Below are positions 12,439-59,388 of a stretch of DNA of 59,608 bases, one piece after another. The position numbers were made by a program, and so were the translations under genes. This DNA is from a virus. Each line of letters opens with the position of its first letter. Within the stretch, counting starts at the first letter, position 1. Location of the stretch: positions 1-59,608 of IMG/VR virus record IMGVR_UViG_3300046000_005070. One strand, given 5' to 3'. The notes beneath the pieces were generated by a model. It was not told where the DNA came from, ran no database searches, and worked only from the letters and a program-made list of their open reading frames with translations.

Positions 12439-13284
12439 ATGAAAAAGTTAAGAATGGCTATTGTGGGGCACGGGTTTGTCGGTGCAGCAGTAGATTATGG
12501 GTTTCCGAATGGTAACTGTAATAAAACAATCATTGATCCGAAATATGGAACTCAAGTCTCTGATTTAATGGAATCTGATGTTGAAGTGTCATTTGTTTGT
12601 GTTCCAACTCCGATGGGGCAAGATGCAAGCATTGATGCTTCAATTCTAGTTTCTACTGTAACTGATTTGCTTGCATACACGTCTGGTATGATTGTGATTA
12701 AATCAACAGTCATTCCGAGTATTGTCGGTGAACTTGCAAAAGATCCAAGAGTCATTTACAATCCAGAATTTTTGACCGAAAAGTCTGCAAATGAAGATTT
12801 TGTCAATCCGATCATGCACGTGTTCGGTGGAGATTCTGAACAAACAGAAAAACTTGAAAAGATCTACACTAGATATAGTGCATGTAAACCATGTGCTGTT
12901 TACCACATGACCGCCGAAGAAGCAAGTTTTGTCAAATATGGTATGAATTCATTTTTAATGACAAAGGTATTATTTTTCAACCAACTTTTTGATTTAATTG
13001 AAAAGAACGGTTCTAATTTTAGTATTATACAAAAGGCAATCACTACGGATCCTAGGATAGGCAGTTCACATACTATGGTACCTGGACATGACGGTCGCAA
13101 AGGTGCCGCGGGGGCATGTTTTGCAAAAGACGGACCTGCATTTGTTATGTATGCAAAAAAAGAAAAAAACCACTTTACTATATTAGAAGAAGTTATAAGA
13201 ACAAATCAAAAATATAGAAATTCTTATGGTGAGCCTCTACCAAGAGAGAAAGAACAACATATTAATTTCAATTATGATATCTGA
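12439..13284 (+). CDS. UDP-glucose/GDP-mannose dehydrogenase family protein
   Basis: 281-aa protein, shorter than most bacterial UDP-glucose 6-dehydrogenases (around 390-440 aa). It begins with the NAD-binding IVGHGFVGAA. Further motifs are FVCVPTPMG, STVIPS, YNPEFLTEKSA (substrate loop), EASFVKYGMNSFLMTKVLFFNQL (catalytic lysine and asparagine helix), and the active-site cysteine in GACFAKDGPAF (about residue 227). The C-terminal UDP-binding domain of full-length enzymes appears reduced. The expected product is UDP-glucuronate from UDP-glucose. It starts two bases after the epimerase stop, so the two likely act in one pathway. Confidence 0.85.
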   Translation: MKKLRMAIVGHGFVGAAVDYGFPNGNCNKTIIDPKYGTQVSDLMESDVEVSFVCVPTPMGQDASIDASILVSTVTDLLAYTSGMIVIKSTVIPSIVGELAKDPRVIYNPEFLTEKSANEDFVNPIMHVFGGDSEQTEKLEKIYTRYSACKPCAVYHMTAEEASFVKYGMNSFLMTKVLFFNQLFDLIEKNGSNFSIIQKAITTDPRIGSSHTMVPGHDGRKGAAGACFAKDGPAFVMYAKKEKNHFTILEEVIRTNQKYRNSYGEPLPREKEQHINFNYDI

Positions 13285-14306
13285 TCTTTCGCAATTACGG
13301 AAAAACCTATTTCTCTATAGGTTTTTCCCACTATATTATTAAAAAAATTAGTTTGCAAGAAAATACTATTCCTATAAACTCTCAATGATATTTTTCTATC
13401 ACATTTTATGCACCATGTTTTCATTTTTTCACGAGAAATACCCATATCTATTAAACTTGATGCAGAATCAAATATTCCTATGGGTGTTGAATAAAAATAC
13501 TTATGTTTATGATGATTTATCCCAGACATTTTTTCGGAAATTTTATCTTTAGTTTCATTTGATACTATTTTTCCTTTCTGTGATTTAGACATTTTTTCTC
13601 TAGTTTCATCAGACCTTTTTAGACCAAGTTGCCCCTTTCCTATATTTTCTTTATGAGTTTCCGAAAGTAATCTGCCTGTTAATGCTTTCCTAACTTTTTC
13701 TGTGTGCTCACTGCTTTTCTTTTTACCTCGTAAACCAGAGGATATATTATTTTTATGAGCTGTTGTTTTGCGTACTCCTTTACTTGTATTTGAAATTTTG
13801 TGTTTATGATCATCCTTTAATGATATACCTTTTAAAATTGGAATATAATTGCCGTTTAGATAATTGTGATCGTCTATATTTGATTTAAAATATATCTCTG
13901 GATTATTTTTGTCATATACAACAACTTTATTTTTGTTTCTTTTAGAAATATTTGTTACTGCTTCTACTCTAAGTTTATCGTAAATTCTGGAGTTCATAAA
14001 TGTTTTTCTCCTGCATTTCATACCCCATATTGCATCTACACAAGAATAACTTTTTGGATAAGCTTTCCAAAGTAATAAGTGTGCAATAAAATGTTGGCGA
14101 TGTGTTAAAAATGCTTTATTCCAAGGATAAATTAAAAATGATTTATATTCTGGAAACATGTCATTTGCTTTCGGGCAAATATGGTGTTTTTCAATATTAC
14201 CATTATAATTAGTATTTTTAAGTTGACATTTTTGAATAAATGTTATATACTTATTCAAATAATGTGAATTGTGCGGCTTACTTGCCAAAATGGAATAAAT
14301 ATCCAT
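13272..14306 (-). CDS. HNH homing endonuclease with NUMOD3 repeats
   Basis: 344-aa protein on the opposite strand to its neighbours. The nuclease core is EKHHICPKA (residues 39-47) with WNKAFLTHRQHFIAHLLLW (62-80), giving the HNH histidine-asparagine-histidine set. Residues about 160-270 hold repeated NUMOD3-like DNA-binding modules (SDETREKMSKSQKGK, SNETKDKISEKMSG). This is the layout of free-standing T4-type homing endonucleases, which spread by cutting related phage DNA. AAGGA precedes the ATG by seven bases, with a late promoter and a 5' hairpin further upstream. The 3' end overlaps the dehydrogenase gene by 13 bases and contains a terminator. The gene looks AT-richer than its neighbours. 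Confidence 0.85.
   Translation of the reverse strand: MDIYSILASKPHNSHYLNKYITFIQKCQLKNTNYNGNIEKHHICPKANDMFPEYKSFLIYPWNKAFLTHRQHFIAHLLLWKAYPKSYSCVDAIWGMKCRRKTFMNSRIYDKLRVEAVTNISKRNKNKVVVYDKNNPEIYFKSNIDDHNYLNGNYIPILKGISLKDDHKHKISNTSKGVRKTTAHKNNISSGLRGKKKSSEHTEKVRKALTGRLLSETHKENIGKGQLGLKRSDETREKMSKSQKGKIVSNETKDKISEKMSGINHHKHKYFYSTPIGIFDSASSLIDMGISREKMKTWCIKCDRKISLRVYRNSIFLQTNFFNNIVGKTYREIGFSVIAKDQIS
13299..13328. terminator. Bidirectional terminator after the dehydrogenase gene
   Basis: A 12-bp perfect inverted repeat, GGAAAAACCTAT / ATAGGTTTTTCC, with a six-base loop. The core CCTAT/ATAGG hairpin followed by TTTTT works as an intrinsic terminator in either direction. It stops the rightward sugar operon. 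In the leftward direction it lies inside the last codons of the HNH gene. Confidence 0.7.
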
Positions 14307-23258: not shown

Positions 23259-25601
23259 TTACATAGCAGATCCGAAACTTAATTCGGAATCGGAATTCGA
23301 CATGTTATTAATGTATGTCGGACCGCCAACATATGTTGCAGCTCTAGCATCAGTAGGAGCATATGTAGGTGCATTTATGCTAGCAGCTGCTTGTGCAGAA
23401 GCCGCCGTTCTTCTTTCAATTTCTGCTTCAAGTCTAGCACTTCGTTCCTGTTCTTGTTGTATTCTTGTACTAGTTTCTCTAATCGCGCCGTCCATCGGGA
23501 TATTGCCTTGAGCACCTGTTAAATTAGATTCGGCAGTTGCCGATGCAGCACTCTGCTGCACATTTGGATTTACATTTGATTTTCCTAATACAAAGTTTAC
23601 CTTTGCTATTGCATCAGCCATCTCATCTAATTGAAGTGATGGGTTTAATAAACCTTTTGGAAAATTAATATCTTCTCCCCACCAACTGCCAGACCCTTCT
23701 ACAGGACCGCCGTGGGCCAGCGCATCCAAGAATGGAATTGCTCTACCTAAATCTATAGCTAATTGTTTAAAATCAAGATTAATTCCACTAATTTTAATAT
23801 CTGCAAATTTACTTAAAGCAGACGTAATTTTTTCTAATGCTTCTCCGCCTTTTACCAAGCCATCCGCATTATCAGCAATTTTCATAATTTGATCAAATGC
23901 ACTTTCGCCAGTAAAAAATGCAATAATTGCTGCCCCAGCTTGCCCCAAACCACTAATTATAGAACCAACACCAAATGCTGCCAAGCCAGCAGAAACGGAA
24001 ATTAGACCAGCACCAAGTCCTACTAAATCAATACCATCCAGTTCTTTTGCGGCGGCGACACCTTGGAACACATTAGTAAATAGTGCTTTTAATCCAGCAC
24101 CTGGTTCACCACCAGTTCCCATTGCTATTAATTGAGTAATACCATCACCGACTGCAAGTGCTGACATAAAACCTGCTATACCAACACCAATTAAAGGTAG
24201 ACCTACAGCTATGGTTGCCCCTCCGACACCGGTCGCTGCGACTGCCATCAGTACACCAAGTGCTGTCATAGCTTCTGTACTTAACGATAAAATTATGTCA
24301 TTAAACATTTTAAACGCAGAAACTAAACCTTCGCCACTTCCTGAAGGTATTCCATCAAGCCATGATAAGCCCTTATCTGCTAGAACAAGCCCACCCAAGA
24401 ATCCTGCAATACCAGCACTAATACCAAACATATTTTTTGCAATAGTTGCAGGATTGATAGTAAATTTAGATGCAATACCTAGTAATCCTCCAAGTATAGC
24501 AACACTTTCTACAGAAAGACCTGTCACAGAATCATTAAACAATTTAAATGCGCCATTTAAATCAGAACCATCTGTTCCAGATATTCCTGTAATCCAATCA
24601 AGACCTATATCTGTTAAAACAAGACCACCTAAAAAGCCTGCAATACCAGCGCTAACTCCAAACATATTTTTGGCAGTCCTTTTTGGATCTGCATCAAATT
24701 TAGTTGCAACTGCTGCTAAACCACCCAGCACTAATAAACTTTCAGGTGAAAGACTTCCTACTGAATCACTGAACATTTTAAATACCGTGCTTAGACCAGA
24801 ACCATCTGCCCCAGATATTCCTGTAATCCAATCAAGACCTATATCTGTTAAAACAAGACCACCTAAAAAGCCTGCAATACCAGCAGCAACACCTGTCATA
24901 TTTTTTGCTAAACTTTTTGCATCTCCGCCGAACGCTTGATTTGCTATAGCTATAGCAGCTACACCAGCAAATAAAGTCACTGCCCCAGTAGTAAGATTAC
25001 CTATAGCTTCACTAAATGAAGCTAGCGCGCCGCCGACAGCAGAATAATCATTTCCAACCCAACTTAGTCCAATTTCACCAATAGAAAGACCTACTAAAAA
25101 TCCACTAATGCCGGCGCCAAGTCCTGTCATCCCACTTGCAGTACCAAGACCATAAAGATTTTTAAGAGAAGCAGTTCCCGCCGCGATTGCCGCGGCGCCA
25201 GCTAATGCAGTCATTGCAGCTGGCGATAGATTTTCCATTGCATCACTAAACGACGCAAACGCAGTACTTAGTCCGCTATAATCGTTGCCAAGCCAGTCTA
25301 ATCCTACACTTCCTATTGAAAGCGCTGCCATAAATCCTGCTATGCCAGCACCCATACCTATGAGACCCCCGGCTCCGCTAGCAGCAGCACCTATACCAGC
25401 ACCAACACCCGGCGCAGCTGCTTGACCTATAGATTGTCCCTGAGCGGCCTGCGCGGCAGGAGAAACAATATCAGTACCAGTACTAGAAAGACGATCTCTA
25501 GTTGCTTGAGCAGTAAGCATATTGACCAATAACGTTTTTTGATCAGTCATTGTCTTATCAATAGATTTTAAAACATCCTGGAGATCGTCTAATGTTGCCA
25601 T
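23259..25601 (-). CDS. Tape measure protein (gp29-like position)
   Basis: 780-aa alanine- and glycine-rich protein, the last gene of the leftward tail operon. Residues about 80-475 contain six related units of about 75-80 residues built on GxxAGIAGFLGGL, then GLDW, a small polar loop, FKxFxDSxxxLS and another hydrophobic helix. Hydrophobic helices of this kind are typical of tape measure proteins, which fix tail length and may form a membrane channel on infection. The C-terminal part is a coiled coil (QQEQERSARLEAEIERR) with a low-complexity end. It directly follows the gp26/gp51 chaperone-like pair, the usual place for the tape measure. Specific homology to T4 gp29 (590 aa) is not evident by eye. 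Confidence 0.75.
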   Translation of the reverse strand: MATLDDLQDVLKSIDKTMTDQKTLLVNMLTAQATRDRLSSTGTDIVSPAAQAAQGQSIGQAAAPGVGAGIGAAASGAGGLIGMGAGIAGFMAALSIGSVGLDWLGNDYSGLSTAFASFSDAMENLSPAAMTALAGAAAIAAGTASLKNLYGLGTASGMTGLGAGISGFLVGLSIGEIGLSWVGNDYSAVGGALASFSEAIGNLTTGAVTLFAGVAAIAIANQAFGGDAKSLAKNMTGVAAGIAGFLGGLVLTDIGLDWITGISGADGSGLSTVFKMFSDSVGSLSPESLLVLGGLAAVATKFDADPKRTAKNMFGVSAGIAGFLGGLVLTDIGLDWITGISGTDGSDLNGAFKLFNDSVTGLSVESVAILGGLLGIASKFTINPATIAKNMFGISAGIAGFLGGLVLADKGLSWLDGIPSGSGEGLVSAFKMFNDIILSLSTEAMTALGVLMAVAATGVGGATIAVGLPLIGVGIAGFMSALAVGDGITQLIAMGTGGEPGAGLKALFTNVFQGVAAAKELDGIDLVGLGAGLISVSAGLAAFGVGSIISGLGQAGAAIIAFFTGESAFDQIMKIADNADGLVKGGEALEKITSALSKFADIKISGINLDFKQLAIDLGRAIPFLDALAHGGPVEGSGSWWGEDINFPKGLLNPSLQLDEMADAIAKVNFVLGKSNVNPNVQQSAASATAESNLTGAQGNIPMDGAIRETSTRIQQEQERSARLEAEIERRTAASAQAAASINAPTYAPTDARAATYVGGPTYINNMSNSDSELSFGSAM
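24180..25370 (-). repeat. About six 75-80-residue repeats in the tape measure gene
   Basis: In-frame repeats encoding the GIAGFLGGLVLTDIGLDWI unit. Two copies share an identical 74-base stretch (24577-24650 and 24811-24884) at a spacing of 234 bases, so duplication or recombination has been recent. Changes in repeat number would change tail length. Confidence 0.8.
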
Positions 25602-25781
25602 TTATCTAGTTCTTTCTTTCTCGTTTTGACTTTGAATATATTCAATTAACATATCAAAATATAAATCTCTTTCATATGGTAATAAATTTTCAATATCAGA
25701 TATACTATATTTATGGTGTTGAGCCATTCCAAATACTTTTTGGTAGTATACAAAAAGATTAGTGTGACTCGTGATTATATA
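25602..25781 (-). CDS. 51: gp51-like domain reached by -1 frameshift from gp26
   Basis: An open frame of 59 codons with no ATG, GTG or TTG before the internal ATG at 25727. The protein segment (TNLFVYYQKVFGMAQHHKYS, then DIENLLPYERDLYFDMLIEY) matches what I recall of gp51, the baseplate hub assembly factor of T4-like phages. Its conserved part begins well upstream of that ATG. The frame is -1 relative to gp26 and overlaps its end at a run of seven T. The likely product is a gp26-gp51 fusion of about 291 aa; a 41-aa protein from the ATG at 25727 is the alternative. The stop codon is adjacent to the tape measure ATG. Confidence 0.7.
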   Translation of the reverse strand, partial: YIITSHTNLFVYYQKVFGMAQHHKYSISDIENLLPYERDLYFDMLIEYIQSQNEKERTR

Positions 25782-26476
25782 AAAAAACTTTGAGTACCTT
25801 GTATTGTAAATACCTTATCTTTACCTTTAGAATTTTTATATGGCATCTCGTGTCTTACTTTTGGCATTGTATCAAAAAATGTCTTAATCTTCTTTATGAC
25901 ATCAGCGTGCAAACTTTCAATAAATTCATCAACCTGTTTCTTTGTAAAATCTTTGAAGTTATATACTTCATTTTCTGATGCTAACATGTCAATGCATGAA
26001 ATTAGAATTTCATAACTTTTCTCTGGTGATAAATCTTGTTTATCTAAAATTTCTGTAAAATCATCTATAGAAGGATATTTTAGAAAAATTGTATATTTTT
26101 CATCTAATGATATTTTATTTGTATGCTTTTCATCTCTATAGACTTTTACATTTTGAAGATCTAAAGTCAATTTTATTTTTTCTTGTGTATCTGGATCGTC
26201 AATTTCAAATTCTACATTATTATCAACAGATCTTGATCTGATATTAATAAGTAAATACTCAAGATCAAATAGTGCTAATTTATCTACATCATAATCTTGT
26301 ATACAATTATTTACAATTTGTTTAATTGCCATAATAATCTGTTCTGGATCTTTAGATTGCTGCGCAGTCAAAAGAATTTTTTCTTCTTTGACAGTGAATG
26401 GTCTATATTGAACTTTCTTTCCATTAGAAGGAAGTATTAATTCATAAAGTGGTAACTCAATTTTTGGTAGTGACAT
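25775..26476 (-). CDS. 26: gp26 baseplate hub subunit / tail chaperone-like
   Basis: 233-aa protein similar to gp26 of environmental T4-like phages. The N-terminal PKIELPLYELILPSNGKKVQ, followed by YRPFTVKEEKILL, is the diagnostic region, then LFDLEYLLINIRSRSV. The C-terminal region is acidic and helical. T4 gp26 is 208 aa. It lies just upstream of gp51 and the tape measure gene, the position held by tail assembly chaperones in lambda-like and P2-like phages. The last codons contain the T7 slip site. Confidence 0.85.
   Translation of the reverse strand: MSLPKIELPLYELILPSNGKKVQYRPFTVKEEKILLTAQQSKDPEQIIMAIKQIVNNCIQDYDVDKLALFDLEYLLINIRSRSVDNNVEFEIDDPDTQEKIKLTLDLQNVKVYRDEKHTNKISLDEKYTIFLKYPSIDDFTEILDKQDLSPEKSYEILISCIDMLASENEVYNFKDFTKKQVDEFIESLHADVIKKIKTFFDTMPKVRHEMPYKNSKGKDKVFTIQGTQSFFI
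25781..25787 (-). promoter_or_regulatory. Slippery T7 run, probable -1 frameshift site
   Basis: Read leftward, gene 26 ends AGT TTT TTT ATA TAA. T TTT TTT is a classical X XXY YYZ slip site, and a -1 slip gives TTT TTT TAT ATA, entering the gp51 frame just before the gene 26 stop. No clear downstream pseudoknot was seen. Confidence 0.6.
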
Positions 26477-50427: not shown

Positions 50428-50870
50428 CAATAACAAAACTTATAACAAGTCAGGCTCCTGATGCAAAACCCGTCGGAGTTTCTAAATCTATAACTAGTGC
50501 TGGTTGGACTACTTTAATAGAAGTGCCAGAATATGAAATACCCGAAGAAACATTCGGCGGGGGAACCATTACTGTACCAGGTGTTGCTGAAATTATCAGC
50601 CCTTTACTTATTACTAATATAAGTGCGGCAAGCATCGATGTAGATATACGAATTTATAGAAATACCGATACTACTAACTATTTAATTGCTACACAATTAC
50701 CAATACCAGCATTTGATATTTTGCCACTTCCGTTAAATGGTCAATTTATTGCTAGTGGTGATAAACTAGAAATTACTAGTTCTGCAGCTAGTGGCATTAA
50801 TGTGACAATATCTTATACAGTGGGTCAAGCTGAACAGGATGATGTAGACGGAATAGTGGAGACCGTATAA
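50424..50870 (+). CDS. Beta-sandwich fibre-region protein
   Basis: 148-aa protein starting MTITKLITSQAPDAKPVGVS. The alternating pattern (LLITNISAASIDVDIRIYRN, KLEITSSAASGINVTISYTV) indicates a small beta-sandwich. Small proteins like this accompany fibre genes in environmental T4-like phages and may act as connectors or decorations. Start and stop overlap both neighbouring genes, so it is translated with the fibres. Function not known. Confidence 0.7.
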   Translation: MTITKLITSQAPDAKPVGVSKSITSAGWTTLIEVPEYEIPEETFGGGTITVPGVAEIISPLLITNISAASIDVDIRIYRNTDTTNYLIATQLPIPAFDILPLPLNGQFIASGDKLEITSSAASGINVTISYTVGQAEQDDVDGIVETV

Positions 50871-53800
50871 TGGCTTTTAGGACAATCCGCGGTAAAACTT
50901 CTCTTCTTGGACAAGGATCTAAGTTAGAAACACCAATTAACCTAGACCCTCAAAACTTTGAGGGTGCTATTGTTTATGGTGATGATACATTTGTTTACTA
51001 TTCAAATGGAACTCTGTGGATTAGATTAAATGAAGGTCTCCAAGGTTTACAAGGACTTCAGGGTATCCAAGGTTTGCAGGGATTTCAAGGCTTGCAGGGT
51101 ATACCTGGTCAAGGATTACAGGGTCTACAAGGTTACCAAGGTATACAAGGTATTCAAGGCCAGGTAGGTCAAGGTATTCAAGGTATCCAGGGACCTCAAG
51201 GCATTCAGGGCGAACAAGGTACACAAGGAATTCAGGGCCCTCAAGGAATTCAGGGCCAACAAGGTATTCAGGGAACTCAAGGTATAATAGGACCTCAGGG
51301 TCTCCAGGGATCACAGGGTGTTCAAGGTAATCAGGGTATTCAGGGTCAGCAAGGTATTCAAGGTTCCACTGGTGAGCAAGGTATTCAGGGTCTTGTCGGG
51401 CAGCAAGGACTTCAAGGTATACAAGGTTCAATAGGAATTCAAGGTATACAGGGTGCTCAAGGCATTCAAGGAACTCAAGGTATTCAAGGAACTCAGGGAA
51501 CACAAGGTGAACAGGGTATTCAAGGAACTCAGGGTGAACAAGGTATTCAAGGAATACAGGGTACTATAGGACCACAAGGAATACAAGGAACTCAGGGGAA
51601 CCAGGGAACTCAAGGTGTTCAAGGAACTCAGGGGAACCAGGGAACTCAAGGTGTTCAAGGTACACAGGGTATTCAAGGTACTCAAGGGCCACAGGGTATT
51701 CAGGGACTTGTCGGTCAGCAAGGACTTCAAGGTATACAAGGTTCGATAGGAACTCAAGGTATTCAAGGTACACAGGGGACACAGGGTATTCAGGGGCCAC
51801 AGGGTACTCAAGGTGTTCAAGGTATCCAAGGATATCAAGGAATTCAGGGATCTCAAGGTATTCAGGGGCCACAGGGTACTCAAGGTGTTCAAGGTACTCA
51901 AGGTCGCCAAGGTCTTCAAGGAACTTATGGGCCATCATTAACAATTATCGGATCTGTTCTTGATGTTTCAAATTACACACCCCCAGATGATGAACAAGAT
52001 GTTTTAAATACTGCATTTAACACTGCAGTTGCGGGCAATGGTGTGATAGATCAAGCATCTGGCAATCTCTGGGTTTATGATGGTGTTAATTGGAACAATG
52101 TTGGACAAATTCAAGGTCCACAAGGCGCCCAAGGTACACAGGGTATAACAGGATCAGGAATTCAAGGTATTATTGGAAGCCAAGGTATTCAAGGTAATCA
52201 AGGTATCCAGGGGCCGCAAGGAACTCAAGGAACTCAAGGTATCCAGGGACCACAAGGTATCCAAGGACCTCAGGGTATTCAAGGTTCTATTGGCATTCAA
52301 GGTATTCAGGGTCCACAAGGTATCCAAGGGACACAGGGTACTCAGGGTATTCAAGGTTCTATTGGTTCCCAAGGTATTCAAGGCTCTATTGGTTTCCAAG
52401 GTATTCAAGGCACTCAGGGTGAACAGGGTGTCCAAGGTATACAAGGTTTGATAGGAACTCAAGGTATTCAGGGACCACAGGGTATTCAAGGAACTCAAGG
52501 CCGACAAGGTATTCAAGGTCTATTTGGTATTCAAGGTAACCAAGGTATTCAGGGTAACCAAGGTATTCAAGGTCTATTTGGTATTCAAGGTATTCAGGGT
52601 ATTCAAGGTTCTATTGGTATTCAAGGTATTCAGGGACCACAGGGTATTCAAGGATCTCAAGGTATTCAGGGTATACAAGGATCTATTGGCGCTCAAGGTA
52701 TTCAAGGCACTCAAGGTATTCAAGGCACTCAAGGTATTATTGGAAGCCAAGGTATTCAAGGTAATCAAGGCATCCAGGGGCCGCAAGGTATTCAAGGCGC
52801 TCAAGGTATTATTGGAAGCCAAGGTATTCAAGGTACTCAAGGTACTCAAGGTATACAAGGTCAAGTAGGACAGGGTATTCAAGGTTTACAAGGACCTCAA
52901 GGTCAACAAGGTGTGCAAGGAACTCAGGGCCCGCAAGGAACTCAAGGTGTTCAAGGTCAAATCGGTCAACAAGGTATCCAAGGCTCTCAGGGTGTTCAAG
53001 GTATTCAAGGCATTCTTGGTAATCAAGGTATTCAAGGTATTTCAGGATTTGTCGGAGCAGTAGGTTCTCAAGGTGTCCAAGGTATTCAAGGTCTATTTGG
53101 TAATCAAGGTATTCAAGGCCGTCAAGGTATTATAGGGCCAATAGGTGTTCAAGGTCTAAGAGGCGCTCAAGGTGTCCAAGGAACTCAAGGAACTCAGGGT
53201 GTTCAAGGTTTACAAGGTCTTGTTGGCCAAGGTATTCAGGGACTTCAAGGTGTTCAAGGTACATTCGGACCTGCGCTTACTGTTATTGGAAGTATTAGTG
53301 TAGCAAGTGATGCGGCACTTAAAATTGCGTTTCCAAGTGCAGTTTCAGGTAATGCTGTAATTGAAACCAGTACCGGTAAATTATGGGTTTATGATGGTGT
53401 AAATTGGTCTGAAGTAGGTCAATTCGTTGGAGCTCAAGGTATTCAGGGGCGCCAAGGTGTTCAAGGCATTCAGGGACTTGTTGGTCAAGGCATACAAGGT
53501 ATTCAGGGACCTCAAGGTACTCAAGGTCTACAAGGTGTCCAAGGAATTCAAGGTTCAACTGGGTCTCAAGGTAGACAAGGTGTCCAAGGTATACAAGGTC
53601 TTGTGGGCCAAGGCCTACAGGGGCTTCAAGGTCGACAAGGTATACAGGGTGTTCCTGGGTCATTTGCCGCTCAAGGTATCCAGGGTGTTCAAGGTATATC
53701 CGGTCAAAGTTTCAATCAAGGCCTACAAGGTGTTCAGGGTACACAAGGCCGTCAAGGTTTCCAGGGAATATCGGGTCAAAGTTTTAACCAAGGTGTTCAA

Positions 53801-54934
53801 GGTGTTCAAGGGCAATCTGGTTCCGCAGTATTACAAGGTTTCCAGGGACTTCAAGGTACCGATGGTTTGTTTGCAGGACAAGGTATTCAAGGTCGCCAAG
53901 GTGTCCAAGGCCAATCTGGATCTGCTGTTGCTCAAGGTTTCCAGGGACTTCAAGGTACTTCAGGCTCTGCTGTTGCACAAGGTTATCAAGGTATACAAGG
54001 ACAGTCTGGATCTGCTGTAGCCCAAGGTTTCCAGGGACTTCAAGGTACTTCAGGGCAAAGTTTCAACCAAGGCTTACAAGGTGTTCAAGGACAATCTGGT
54101 AATGCGGTTGCTCAAGGTTTCCAAGGACTTCAAGGTACTTCTGGTCAAAGCTTTAATCAAGGTCTCCAAGGTATTCAGGGTGTTCAGGGCGGCGGAGGTG
54201 TTATTGGTAACCAAGGTCTACAAGGTCGCCAAGGTGTCCAAGGAACTATTGGTGGTCAAGGTATTCAAGGTCTTTCAGGTGTAAGTTTCAACCAAGGTCT
54301 CCAAGGTCTACAAGGTCGCCAAGGTGTACAAGGAACTATTGGTGGTCAAGGTCTTTCAGGTGTTGGTGCTAACGGTTCACAGGGTATCCAAGGTATCCAA
54401 GGTATTCAAGGTCGCCAAGGTATTCAGGGTACTTTAGGTCTGCAAGGTATAACAGGAGTTGGGTCACAAGGTATTCAAGGGATCTTTGGTATCCAAGGTA
54501 TTCAAGGTACTACAGGTGTTACTGCCGACCAAACAGTAAATACTTCGAGTAACGTACGATTTAACAGTCTTGGGGTAGGAACTACCGCATCTGGAACTGC
54601 AGGTGAAATTAGAGCAACTAATAATATTACTGCTTATTATTCCGATGATAGACTTAAAACTAGACTTGGGTTAATTGAAAATGCACTTGAAAAAGTTAAA
54701 ACACTTGATGGTTTCTATTATGAAGCAAATGAAATTGCTCAGAGAATGGGTTACAAACCAATAAGAGAAGTCGGTATTTCTGCTCAGAAAGTGAAAGAAA
54801 TTTTACCAGAAATTGTTGCTCCAGCTCCAATTGATGAAAGATATCTGACTGTAAGATATGAAAAAATAGTTCCACTTCTAATTGAAGCAATTAAAGAACT
54901 ATCTGTAAAAATTGAAAGTCTGGAAGGGAAATAA
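50870..54934 (+). CDS. Collagen-like fibre with C-terminal Peptidase_S74
   Basis: 1354-aa protein. Residues 1-54 are an adaptor (MAFRTIRGKTSLLGQGSKLE, ending WIRLNEG). From about residue 55 to 1215 it is Gly-X-Y collagen repeat, in which Y is glutamine in almost every triplet (GIQGPQGIQGTQ) and proline is rare. Two related islands interrupt it at about 352-415 and 798-853; both contain GPxLTxIGS and LWVYDGVNW with an NVGQ or EVGQ ending. The last 130 residues are an S74 self-cleaving chaperone (YSDDRLKTRLG, VGISAQKVKEILPEIV). The product should be a very long trimeric fibre of triple helix. AGGAGACC-type ribosome binding site upstream. Confidence 0.9.
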   Translation: MAFRTIRGKTSLLGQGSKLETPINLDPQNFEGAIVYGDDTFVYYSNGTLWIRLNEGLQGLQGLQGIQGLQGFQGLQGIPGQGLQGLQGYQGIQGIQGQVGQGIQGIQGPQGIQGEQGTQGIQGPQGIQGQQGIQGTQGIIGPQGLQGSQGVQGNQGIQGQQGIQGSTGEQGIQGLVGQQGLQGIQGSIGIQGIQGAQGIQGTQGIQGTQGTQGEQGIQGTQGEQGIQGIQGTIGPQGIQGTQGNQGTQGVQGTQGNQGTQGVQGTQGIQGTQGPQGIQGLVGQQGLQGIQGSIGTQGIQGTQGTQGIQGPQGTQGVQGIQGYQGIQGSQGIQGPQGTQGVQGTQGRQGLQGTYGPSLTIIGSVLDVSNYTPPDDEQDVLNTAFNTAVAGNGVIDQASGNLWVYDGVNWNNVGQIQGPQGAQGTQGITGSGIQGIIGSQGIQGNQGIQGPQGTQGTQGIQGPQGIQGPQGIQGSIGIQGIQGPQGIQGTQGTQGIQGSIGSQGIQGSIGFQGIQGTQGEQGVQGIQGLIGTQGIQGPQGIQGTQGRQGIQGLFGIQGNQGIQGNQGIQGLFGIQGIQGIQGSIGIQGIQGPQGIQGSQGIQGIQGSIGAQGIQGTQGIQGTQGIIGSQGIQGNQGIQGPQGIQGAQGIIGSQGIQGTQGTQGIQGQVGQGIQGLQGPQGQQGVQGTQGPQGTQGVQGQIGQQGIQGSQGVQGIQGILGNQGIQGISGFVGAVGSQGVQGIQGLFGNQGIQGRQGIIGPIGVQGLRGAQGVQGTQGTQGVQGLQGLVGQGIQGLQGVQGTFGPALTVIGSISVASDAALKIAFPSAVSGNAVIETSTGKLWVYDGVNWSEVGQFVGAQGIQGRQGVQGIQGLVGQGIQGIQGPQGTQGLQGVQGIQGSTGSQGRQGVQGIQGLVGQGLQGLQGRQGIQGVPGSFAAQGIQGVQGISGQSFNQGLQGVQGTQGRQGFQGISGQSFNQGVQGVQGQSGSAVLQGFQGLQGTDGLFAGQGIQGRQGVQGQSGSAVAQGFQGLQGTSGSAVAQGYQGIQGQSGSAVAQGFQGLQGTSGQSFNQGLQGVQGQSGNAVAQGFQGLQGTSGQSFNQGLQGIQGVQGGGGVIGNQGLQGRQGVQGTIGGQGIQGLSGVSFNQGLQGLQGRQGVQGTIGGQGLSGVGANGSQGIQGIQGIQGRQGIQGTLGLQGITGVGSQGIQGIFGIQGIQGTTGVTADQTVNTSSNVRFNSLGVGTTASGTAGEIRATNNITAYYSDDRLKTRLGLIENALEKVKTLDGFYYEANEIAQRMGYKPIREVGISAQKVKEILPEIVAPAPIDERYLTVRYEKIVPLLIEAIKELSVKIESLEGK
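51034..54512 (+). repeat. Collagen-like Gly-X-Gln codon repeat array
   Basis: About 3.5 kb of nine-base units (GGT-ATT-CAA and variants), interrupted twice by non-collagen islands. Synonymous variation at GGT/GGA/GGC/GGG and CAA/CAG breaks up perfect repetition, but many longer blocks recur, so slippage and recombination are likely. Neighbouring copies differ mainly in the X residue (I, L, V, T, P, N, S). Confidence 0.9.
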
Positions 54935-56731: not shown

Positions 56732-58057
56732 ATGATACCTGTAAATAGTCTCATTACAAAATTAAATTCTGCTATAGCAACTGGTGGATTGACTAGTCTT
56801 GAATTAGCACAAGTTTTTGGTGCAATAGAATCAATAGAAAAAAGTGGTATAGGAGTTGTTACTGCAACTTTAAATTTACCGCCTGCTGCCAATAATAAAG
56901 GTAGATTTGTATACATCACTTCTGAAAGTAAATATGTATATAGCAATGGTATTACTTGGGACATTAATAATATACTTAGATTTCCAGATGCCAATGGATA
57001 TGCATGGGGCACCGCTGTCTATGGTAGACTTGGCGATGGTACTACTGTTGCTAAATCATCACCTGTTTCTGTAATAGGTGGTTTTACAGATTGGGTTCAA
57101 CTAAATGCTGGCTCTCAACATAGTTTTGGTATTCGTGCAAATGGGACTGCATGGGCGTGGGGTGCCGCCACCTCGGGAAAACTAGGTGATGGAACAACTG
57201 TTTCTAAATCATCTCCTGTATCGGTTGCAGGTGGGTACACTGATTGGGTTCAAGTAAGTGCAGGTGCCACACATAGTCTTGGCTTAAGAGCAAATGGGAC
57301 TGCGTGGGCATGGGGCGCTGGTACAAACGGAAGACTTGGTGACAACACTGCAGTAGCAAAATCGGCTCCTGTATCGGTTGCAGGTGGTTTTATAGATTGG
57401 GTGCAAGTAAGTGCTGGCGCCATTCATAGTCTCGGTGTAAGAGCAAATGGAACCGCATGGGCTTGGGGTTCTGGTGCAAGTGGTATTTTGGGGGACAATA
57501 CCACAGTATCCAAATCGTCTCCAGTTTTGGTGGTAGGTGGCTTTACAGATTGGATTCAAGTAAGTGCTGGTGCCACACATAGTCTTGGCTTAAGAGCAAA
57601 TGGAACTGCTTGGGCATGGGGGCCGAGCACAAATGGCAGACTTGGTGATGGAACAATAGTTTCTAAATTGTCTCCAGTTTCAGTGGTAGGTGGTTTTACG
57701 GATTGGATTCAAGTAAGTGCGGGCGGCTTGAGCAGCGGGCATAGTGTCGGTCTTCGAGCTAATGGAACTGCTTGGGCATGGGGTTATAATACTAACGGTC
57801 AATTAGGTGATGGTACGGTTTCATCTAGAACATCACCAGTATCTGTAGTTGGTGGTTTTACAGATTGGGTTCAAGTAAATGCCGGGACCTCTAATAGTGT
57901 CGGTCTTCGAGCTAATGGAACTGCTTGGGCTTGGGGTGCTGCTATTTTAGGTGACAACACGGCAGTAGGTAAATTGTCTCCAGTATCTATAGTGGGATCC
58001 CTCAATTGGGTTCAAATAAGCACAAATGTTGCCCATATGTTAGGAATTAAAGCATGA
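56732..58057 (+). CDS. Seven-bladed RCC1-type propeller protein 1
   Basis: 441-aa protein. About 88 residues form an N-terminal adaptor (helical start, then KGRFVYITSESKYVYSNGIT). The rest is seven repeats of about 50 residues: AWAWGxxxxGxLGD, an SPVSVVGGFTDWVQVSAG stretch, then HSLGLRANGT. The motif W(G)xNxxGQLGDGT...SPV...W..VsaG..HslalraNGt is the RCC1 beta-propeller pattern. In bacteria such repeats occur in surface and secreted proteins; here the place in the adhesin region suggests a receptor-binding head. The last blade is shortened (ILGDNTAVGKLSPVS). The end overlaps the next gene (ATGA). Confidence 0.88.
   Translation: MIPVNSLITKLNSAIATGGLTSLELAQVFGAIESIEKSGIGVVTATLNLPPAANNKGRFVYITSESKYVYSNGITWDINNILRFPDANGYAWGTAVYGRLGDGTTVAKSSPVSVIGGFTDWVQLNAGSQHSFGIRANGTAWAWGAATSGKLGDGTTVSKSSPVSVAGGYTDWVQVSAGATHSLGLRANGTAWAWGAGTNGRLGDNTAVAKSAPVSVAGGFIDWVQVSAGAIHSLGVRANGTAWAWGSGASGILGDNTTVSKSSPVLVVGGFTDWIQVSAGATHSLGLRANGTAWAWGPSTNGRLGDGTIVSKLSPVSVVGGFTDWIQVSAGGLSSGHSVGLRANGTAWAWGYNTNGQLGDGTVSSRTSPVSVVGGFTDWVQVNAGTSNSVGLRANGTAWAWGAAILGDNTAVGKLSPVSIVGSLNWVQISTNVAHMLGIKA
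56995..58050 (+). repeat. RCC1 repeat array 1
   Basis: Seven in-frame units with a period near 150 bases. Nearly identical blocks encoding GGFTDWIQVSAG and RANGTAWAWG recur, while the 4-6 codons between AWAWG and LGD differ in every unit. Confidence 0.85.
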
Positions 58058-59388
58058 CAGCAATATTAAATATTATTGAAATTATAGTAGATAAAATTAC
58101 TAATTCTACAACAGAACAAGAATTTCTATTCCTTTCTAAGATTATAGAAAAATTAAATGTAAATAAAGTAAAAACTGTAACTTTATATACAGATATGTTT
58201 GATGATTCTTATACATATGGTGATCTGTATTTTGTAGAAACTGAAAATTCTCTATATTATAGTTTTGGCCCTAATAGACTTAAGGTAGTAGAAGGAAGTC
58301 CAAGTCTATTCTCATTTGGCGAAAATGGATCTGGACAATTAGGCGATAATACCGGTATAGGAAAGCAATCACCAGTTTCAGTAGTTGGTGGTTTTACAGA
58401 TTGGATTTATTCGAGTTCTGGATTTAGTCATAATCATGTAATTAGATCTAATGGTACTTTATGGGGTTGGGGATATAACGGCAACGGCCGAATAGGTGAC
58501 AATACTGTTACAGTTAGATCATCACCTGTATCTGTTGTAGGTGGTTTTACAGATTGGACAGAAGTAAGTGCTGGAAATGCATTTTCTCTAGGTTTAAGAG
58601 CAAACGGAACTGCCTGGGCCTGGGGTAATAATACTAGGGGCCAATTAGGTGATGAAACAATAGTTTCTAAATTATCTCCTGTATCTGTAGTCGGTGGTTA
58701 TGTTGATTGGATTCAAGTAAGTGCTGGGCCAGCCTCATTCCCGCATAGTGTAGGTTTAAGAGCAAACGGAACTGCCTGGTCCTGGGGTAATAATGGTAAC
58801 GGACAGCTTGGAGATAACACTTTAGTATCCAAATCTTCCCCTGTATCGGTTGTAGGTGGTTTTACAGATTGGACACAAGTAAGCGCCGGAGGTTACCATA
58901 GTTTGGGAATTAGAGAAAATGGAACTGCGTGGGCGTGGGGAGCGAACACAAATGGAAGACTTGGTGATAATACTACAGTAGGTAAATCGTCTCCAGTGTC
59001 AGTAGTTGGTGGGTACACTGATTGGGTTCAAGTAAGTGCAGGTGATCGTCATAATCTCGGTATAAGAGCAAATGGAACTGCTTGGGCATGGGGTTATAAT
59101 CTATATGGAAGACTTGGCGATGGAACGACTGTTTCTAAATCATCTCCTGTGTCAGTTGTAGGTGGTTTTACAGATTGGGTTCAAGTAAGTGCTAATATAC
59201 ATAGTGTAGGATTAAGATTAAATGGTACAGCATGGGGCTGGGGTGGAAATGGTAGTGGCCGCTTAGGTGATGGTACTGTTACTAGTAGATTATCACCAGC
59301 ATCTGTCATTGGTGGATTTGGCAATTTTAATGATTGGGTTCAACTAAATGCTGGTGGTGCATTTAGTGTCGGTATAAGAACATTATAA
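58054..59388 (+). CDS. Seven-bladed RCC1-type propeller protein 2
   Basis: 444-aa protein with the same layout as its upstream neighbour. About 85 N-terminal residues differ in sequence (LFLSKIIEKLNVNKVKTVTL, FVETENSLYYSFGPN) but look like the same adaptor type. Seven RCC1 units follow, from LFSFGENGSGQLGDN to the final GRLGDGTVTSRLSPASVIGG. Blade 3 carries a small insertion (GPASFPHSVGL) matching one in blade 5 of the first protein (GGLSSGHSVGL). The propeller halves of the two genes are clearly paralogous and the adaptors much less so, suggesting domain exchange. It starts in the stop codon of the first gene. Confidence 0.88.
   Translation: MTAILNIIEIIVDKITNSTTEQEFLFLSKIIEKLNVNKVKTVTLYTDMFDDSYTYGDLYFVETENSLYYSFGPNRLKVVEGSPSLFSFGENGSGQLGDNTGIGKQSPVSVVGGFTDWIYSSSGFSHNHVIRSNGTLWGWGYNGNGRIGDNTVTVRSSPVSVVGGFTDWTEVSAGNAFSLGLRANGTAWAWGNNTRGQLGDETIVSKLSPVSVVGGYVDWIQVSAGPASFPHSVGLRANGTAWSWGNNGNGQLGDNTLVSKSSPVSVVGGFTDWTQVSAGGYHSLGIRENGTAWAWGANTNGRLGDNTTVGKSSPVSVVGGYTDWVQVSAGDRHNLGIRANGTAWAWGYNLYGRLGDGTTVSKSSPVSVVGGFTDWVQVSANIHSVGLRLNGTAWGWGGNGSGRLGDGTVTSRLSPASVIGGFGNFNDWVQLNAGGAFSVGIRTL
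58309..59385 (+). repeat. RCC1 repeat array 2
   Basis: Seven units of about 150 bases, paralogous to array 1. Blocks such as the one encoding SPVSVVGGFTDW are close to identical within and between the two arrays, making the pair a likely recombination substrate. Confidence 0.85.

Follow-up and report, generated by a model that had tools for sequence, protein, structure and literature searches.

The window analysed here, a 59,608-nucleotide IMG/VR virus record (IMGVR_UViG_3300046000_005070, taken over its full length), carries T4-like genes, and on its minus strand a gp51-like reading frame follows gene 26 directly upstream of a putative tape measure gene. The locus raises the question of whether this frame is a gene in its own right or the C-terminal part of a longer product of gene 26. 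In our view the two very probably form one tail assembly chaperone gene, the long form of which would be made by −1 slippage on T_TTT_TTT. The evidence is sequence-based and consists of a conserved heptamer, an open −1 frame, the lack of a ribosome-binding site, a selected RNA fold and the collinearity of T4 gp51 with the long product. We infer the slippage itself, its frequency and the binding roles as follows. Most ribosomes would stop at the TAA and release a 233-residue short chaperone. In a minority the P- and A-site tRNA-Phe on T_TTT_TTT, delayed by a stem-loop 10 nt downstream, would move back by one base, and these ribosomes would go on to make a 291-residue long form with a C-terminal domain of about 60 residues. 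By analogy with G/GT of phage lambda, the product of the neighbouring gene, the tape measure protein, may be coated by the short form, and recruitment of tail tube subunits may fall to the long form.

The gp26 junction in the window

The features of the locus are collected in Table 1. The 3′ end of gene 26 reads AGT TTT TTT ATA TAA on the leftward strand, as the first-pass annotation had it, and the gp51-like frame is indeed offset from gp26 by exactly −1. Entry into it is over T_TTT_TTT, and it reads FFYIITSHTNLFVYYQKVFGMAQHHKYSISDIENLLPYERDLYFDMLIEYIQSQNEKERTR. A conserved heptamer of the form X_XXY_YYZ is present in phase close to where the first open reading frame ends. Conceptual fusion at this point gives 232 + 59 = 291 residues, which agrees with the length of roughly 291 foreseen earlier, with the junction peptide TQSFFYIITSHTNLF. 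The stop codon of the −1 frame (25602–25604) abuts the ATG of the tape measure gene (25599–25601) with no gap.

Table 1. Features of the gp26/gp51 locus in the window
Feature	Position	Strand	Evidence
gp26-like short tail assembly chaperone (TAC-N), 233 aa, standard reading	25775..26476	−	Pfam PF12322 T4_baseplate, E 1e-59 (residues 10–232); PHROG 150; about 34–44% identity to cyanophage gp26
Slippery heptamer T_TTT_TTT, gp26 codons 231–232 (Phe-Phe)	25781..25787	−	Sequence; conserved at the junctions of relatives
TAA that ends gp26 in the zero frame, one codon past the heptamer	25775..25777	−	Same one-codon spacing in 184/188 junctions
gp51-like C-terminal domain (TAC-C), −1 frame, 61 codons from FF plus stop; first start ATG 25725–25727 (codon 21)	25602..25787	−	PHROG 634, E 2.4e-19; aligns to T4 gp51 residues 200–243
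Proposed 291-aa fusion (TAC-NC) via −1 frameshifting	25602..26476	−	Inferred product
Predicted stimulatory stem-loop, 6 + 4 + 7 bp, starting 10 nt after the heptamer	25721..25770	−	−14.5 kcal/mol, z −3.88; synonymous recoding z −2.4; core pairs covary in relatives
ACG codon; near relatives L009 and L010 have ATG there	25770..25772	−	Sequences of relatives
Putative tape measure protein gene, 780 aa, directly downstream	23259..25601	−	Location and repeat-rich composition; in records of relatives the gene annotated just after gp26/gp51 is a tape measure

The open reading frames of at least 80 residues in the window hold three in-phase T_TTT_TTY heptamers. Only that of gp26 gives access to a −1 frame that runs on well beyond the stop (57 codons), and for this reason we regard the junction as beyond chance. 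The T7 run, together with ACG in place of a start, recurs unchanged in four further contigs (L005–L008), which come from different metagenomes, so an assembly error in the T7 run is unlikely. A megablast search of the region against phages gave no match.

The statement that the −1 frame has no ATG, GTG or TTG before residue 19 was borne out, the first such codon being codon 21 counted from FF and residue 19 if counting begins after FF. It had also been claimed that conserved gp51-like residues lie upstream of the only ATG. This holds for the residues, as His8, Leu11, Tyr14 and Tyr15, all 5′ of the first ATG, are at least 90% conserved among 44 aligned sequences, but not for the ATG, since a second one is found at codon 46.

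Codons and reading frames at the junctions of relatives

Relatives were gathered as viral contigs matching the gp26 of the window, an alignment, or the gp26 of Aeh1, OLIVR6 and Bellamy, together with annotated phage records. Removal of identical junctions left 190, which fall into 56 clusters at 70% protein identity. All but two of these distinct junctions (188/190) have Phe-Phe near the end of gp26, coded as T_TTT_TTC in 121 cases, T_TTT_TTT in 66 and G_TTT_TTT in one; the slippery run seen in the window is kept as T_TTT_TTY in 187 of the 188. The two junctions without Phe-Phe are those of phiM9, which reads T_TTT_TTG, and AB2I3, which is of the T4 type and has no such site. At internal Phe-Phe sites of the same genes T_TTT_TTY occurs in only 1 of 56 among the cluster representatives, and we conclude that the codons of the junction, and not the amino acids alone, are constrained.

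These counts bear on two of the alternatives. The first is that AT-rich composition alone explains the Phe-Phe codons and that the two frames are unrelated genes. The window and many relatives are AT-rich, and TTT makes up 72–75% of the Phe codons elsewhere, but internal Phe-Phe sites of the same genes show T_TTT_TTY in only the 1 of 56 given above, and GAT TTT TTC is also kept in phiW-14, Bhz51 and SRB7757. Furthermore, some members of the T4 group, in which the long form is separate, have a Phe-Phe in gp26 that is coded TTC TTT or TTC TTC. We find this explanation scarcely credible. The second, in which RNA polymerase adds one base on the T7 run and so gives the fusion, is very improbable. 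Slippage on seven consecutive T is conceivable, but 121 of the 188 junctions have six T followed by C, and a six-T run is too short for usual transcriptional slippage; in addition, the codon phase is kept while the length of the run varies, and a downstream stem-loop suits ribosomal stalling.

Slippage by the ribosome on the heptamer agrees with the state of the reading frames. Read from the heptamer onward, the −1 frame runs for 56–88 codons without a stop in all 188 complete cases, whereas the +1 frame closes at a median of 10, and the −1 peptides of the relatives align as one family. The remaining alternative is a separate gp51 gene translated by coupled re-initiation at an overlapping ATG (TAATG or TGATG), with ACG or the later ATG in use in the window. 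It is consistent with the public records, which list gp51 as its own coding sequence, and with 34 of 55 cluster representatives, in which codon 4 or 5 of the −1 frame is the earliest ATG, GTG or TTG and overlaps or just follows the gp26 stop; the S-PM2 record annotates an ATG at such a position as the gp51 start. Against it, 16 of the 55 representatives have no start before codon 10, as in the window, and they are scattered such that the tree forces at least nine changes. The mean Shine–Dalgarno energy is −5.75 kcal/mol for gp26 starts and −0.01 kcal/mol for the gp51 ATGs, which is weaker than at random sites (−1.67 kcal/mol). Moreover, re-initiation requires neither a −1 frame that is always open through the slip site nor constrained Phe-Phe codons, both of which are seen, and it does not account for the conserved residues upstream of the first ATG of the window. 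The position of the ATG within the 5′ arm of a conserved stem offers another possible cause of its partial conservation. We therefore consider re-initiation as the source of gp51 to be improbable.

The missing start noted in the window is shared with part of the relatives. Relatives with a normal gp51 start had been named as speaking against a frameshift, and many relatives do have an ATG overlapping the gp26 stop that looks like such a start; this argument fails because these ATGs lack a Shine–Dalgarno sequence, are not conserved and, in the group of the window, lie in the 5′ arm of the stem. For the same reasons, and because a start is absent from 16 of 55 representatives, the early ATG is probably not the main start of the frame. 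The annotated gp51 start would accordingly not be a real one, and the evidence on this point is possibly new. Since 34 of the 55 do have a start at codon 4 or 5, some free C-terminal domain may be made by re-initiation in those phages.

Several relatives have unusual junctions or annotation. In the Ackermannviridae (S117 and phiEa2809), Cygsa01 and Vibrio K475 the −1 gp51-like frame is open, with the codons ATT TTC or CTT TTT and without the heptamer (L264:1770–1990, L265:1750–1950, L262:2790–2985 and L266:1700–1910). These cases weigh against the proposed explanation and point to another signal for slippage or another mechanism. Around the gp26 stop of S117 and phiEa2809 there is no start codon, and gp51 is not annotated in them. 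The −1 C-terminal domain is likewise unannotated, and has no early start codon, in Aeh1 (L086:3215–3390) and P19 (L093:2705–2873). In SRB7757, an unannotated record (L267 from 1001), the domain is present and a start codon is entirely absent.

The predicted stem-loop after the slip site

Folding was evaluated over the 65 nt that follow the heptamer; a 50 nt stretch missed the stem of the window itself. Compared with dinucleotide shuffles, the 55 representatives have a mean z of −2.83, with 40 below −2 (control stretches, −0.11 to −0.40). Compared with synonymous recodings of the same peptide the mean z is −2.95, with 44 of 55 below −2 (controls, −0.05 to −0.35). The cyanophage-like group of 91 sequences gives a mean fold z of −2.51 (controls, −0.26 to −0.92).

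Among the 55 sequences of the window group an 11 bp stem, 88.8% paired, begins 5 nt past the heptamer. Typical arms are GTTGAGTCA/TGGCTCAAC and GCTGTGCCA/TGGCACAGC. Double-changed cells number 41 in this stem compared with 22.6 ± 5.8 after shuffling. The covariation score is 0.246, whereas shuffles give 0.169 ± 0.011 (none of 500 reaches the observed value) and slid partners give at most 0.098. Shuffling of this kind leaves shared ancestry as a possible contribution to the score. A tree-aware test leaned toward covariation but fell short of significance, there being too few independent pairs. The early ATG of the gp51 frame sits in the 5′ arm of this stem in the window group.

In the window the six inner pairs of the conserved stem are retained, with extensions of 4 and 7 bp. 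Two departures weigh against the reading: the majority of the outer pairs are broken, and 10 nt separate the stem from the heptamer, compared with about 5 nt in most relatives. At the same place the hairpins of cyanophage-like relatives are shorter (14 bp in S-PM2). RNAalifold found no consensus structure for the cyanophage-like junctions, and the hairpins there seem to differ in geometry; the folding is still significantly stable. Taken from these comparisons, the RNA fold appears to be under selection and the stem-loop is a predicted stimulator of frameshifting, so that the locus would hold a compact frameshift signal with a structural stimulator. Structures of this kind are frequent at −1 frameshift sites, though slippage does not require them. 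The covarying stem-loop in this role is the main addition of the present analysis and is possibly new: no description of an RNA fold after the slip site was found in the literature, in which Vladimirov et al. (2022) is represented here by the papers that cite it. The −1 programmed frameshift proposed in the first-pass annotation thus draws support from the comparison of 188 junctions, the open −1 frame and the predicted stem-loop.

T4 gp51 and related chaperone systems

The short form of the window belongs to the gp26 family, and its C-terminal extension is homologous to the C-terminal part of T4 gp51. T4 gene 51 encodes 249 residues and is transcribed divergently from gene 26. Residues 1–201 of T4 gp51 are a gp26-family domain (PF12322, E 3.9e-52) and residues 200–243 match the −1 domain (hhalign E 1.6e-4); because the two follow in this order, T4 gp51 is collinear with the frameshift product and is joined at the position of the slip site. 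With hhalign, the −1 domain gave no match to T4 gp26, and the gp26 profile left the N-terminal part of the single T4 gp51 sequence unmatched, where Pfam gives the E value above. In the T4 group gp26 ends with Phe-Phe coded as TTC TTT or TTC TTC, or has no Phe-Phe; the heptamer is absent, and the gene leads into gene 25 with no gp51 frame after it. Judged from these sequences, phages that encode the long form in a separate gene lack the slip site, and the T4 group serves as a natural control. We consider it somewhat probable that in most T4-like phages outside the T4 group a conserved covarying stem-loop, with the annotated gp51 ATG in its 5′ arm, drives the frameshift, that gp51 is no gene there, and that T4 gp51 is the fused form fixed as a second gene. 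We also note that in RB43 (L261:1501–2794) what appear to be the two chaperone genes, one long (gp51-type) and one short (gp26-type), lie one after the other on the same strand, whereas the T4 pair is divergent.

The −1 frameshift of lambda G/GT is said to go back to Levin et al. in 1993, and the lambda slip site is GGGAAAG. As proposed for the window, lambda makes a short and a long form from one gene located upstream of the tape measure gene, the −1 slip occurring shortly before the short form ends. The window differs in its slippage on U_UUU_UUU and in its strong predicted downstream stem-loop, and no sequence homology was detected. That gp26 and gp51 would be a chaperone pair of this kind, as had been suggested, is supported comparatively by their position before the tape measure gene and by the collinearity of T4 gp51. 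An AlphaFold model of gp26 (pLDDT 87.6) has as its top PDB match the HK97 tail assembly chaperone 2ob9, but weakly (E 0.39, probability 0.72). A search of PDB sequences with the gp26 profile returned nothing credible, and a fold search with the gp51-like domain returned nothing useful. In the lambda model the short form is on the tape measure protein and the long form recruits tube subunits (PMC5009743).

The first-pass annotation knew of no description of such a frameshift in T4-like phages. This does not stand, going by the papers that cite Vladimirov, Gautam and Davidson (2022; Virology 566:9–15), who identified the tail assembly chaperones of T4-like phages: they are cited for separate short and fused genes (PMC10885494) and for poly-T slippery sequences in TAC-N genes (PMC12846349). 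As so cited, some T4-like phages resemble the window in having a poly-T slip site in TAC-N, and others have separate short and fused long genes; in T4 the two forms are separate divergent genes, whereas the window has one locus with a −1 frame. The frameshift is therefore already published for T4-like phages, and the window adds another case. A 2016 review gave the G/GT-type frameshift as conserved "except T4" (PMC5009743); together with Vladimirov et al., the present comparison suggests that the relatives of this listed exception keep the usual frameshift and that T4 itself has two genes. It would also imply an annotation error in many cyanophage records, which list gp51 as a separate gene, and an omission of gp51 from others (Aeh1 and P19). 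The chaperone frameshift of the Vandenendeviridae and Andersonviridae (phage Adele; PMC12846349) is similar in its always open −1 frame and its invariant GTTTTT motif, but these are other phage families and their motif is shorter.

Three further loci of the window were noted in passing. A 1354-residue protein (50870–54934) consists mostly of collagen-like QGIQG repeats and is perhaps a tail fibre or adhesin. Two adjacent genes (56732–59388) carry WAWG...GDNT...SSPVSV repeat units that by eye are RCC1-like. On the minus strand a 344-residue open reading frame that opposes its neighbours (13272–14306) has, by eye only, the look of an HNH-type homing endonuclease.
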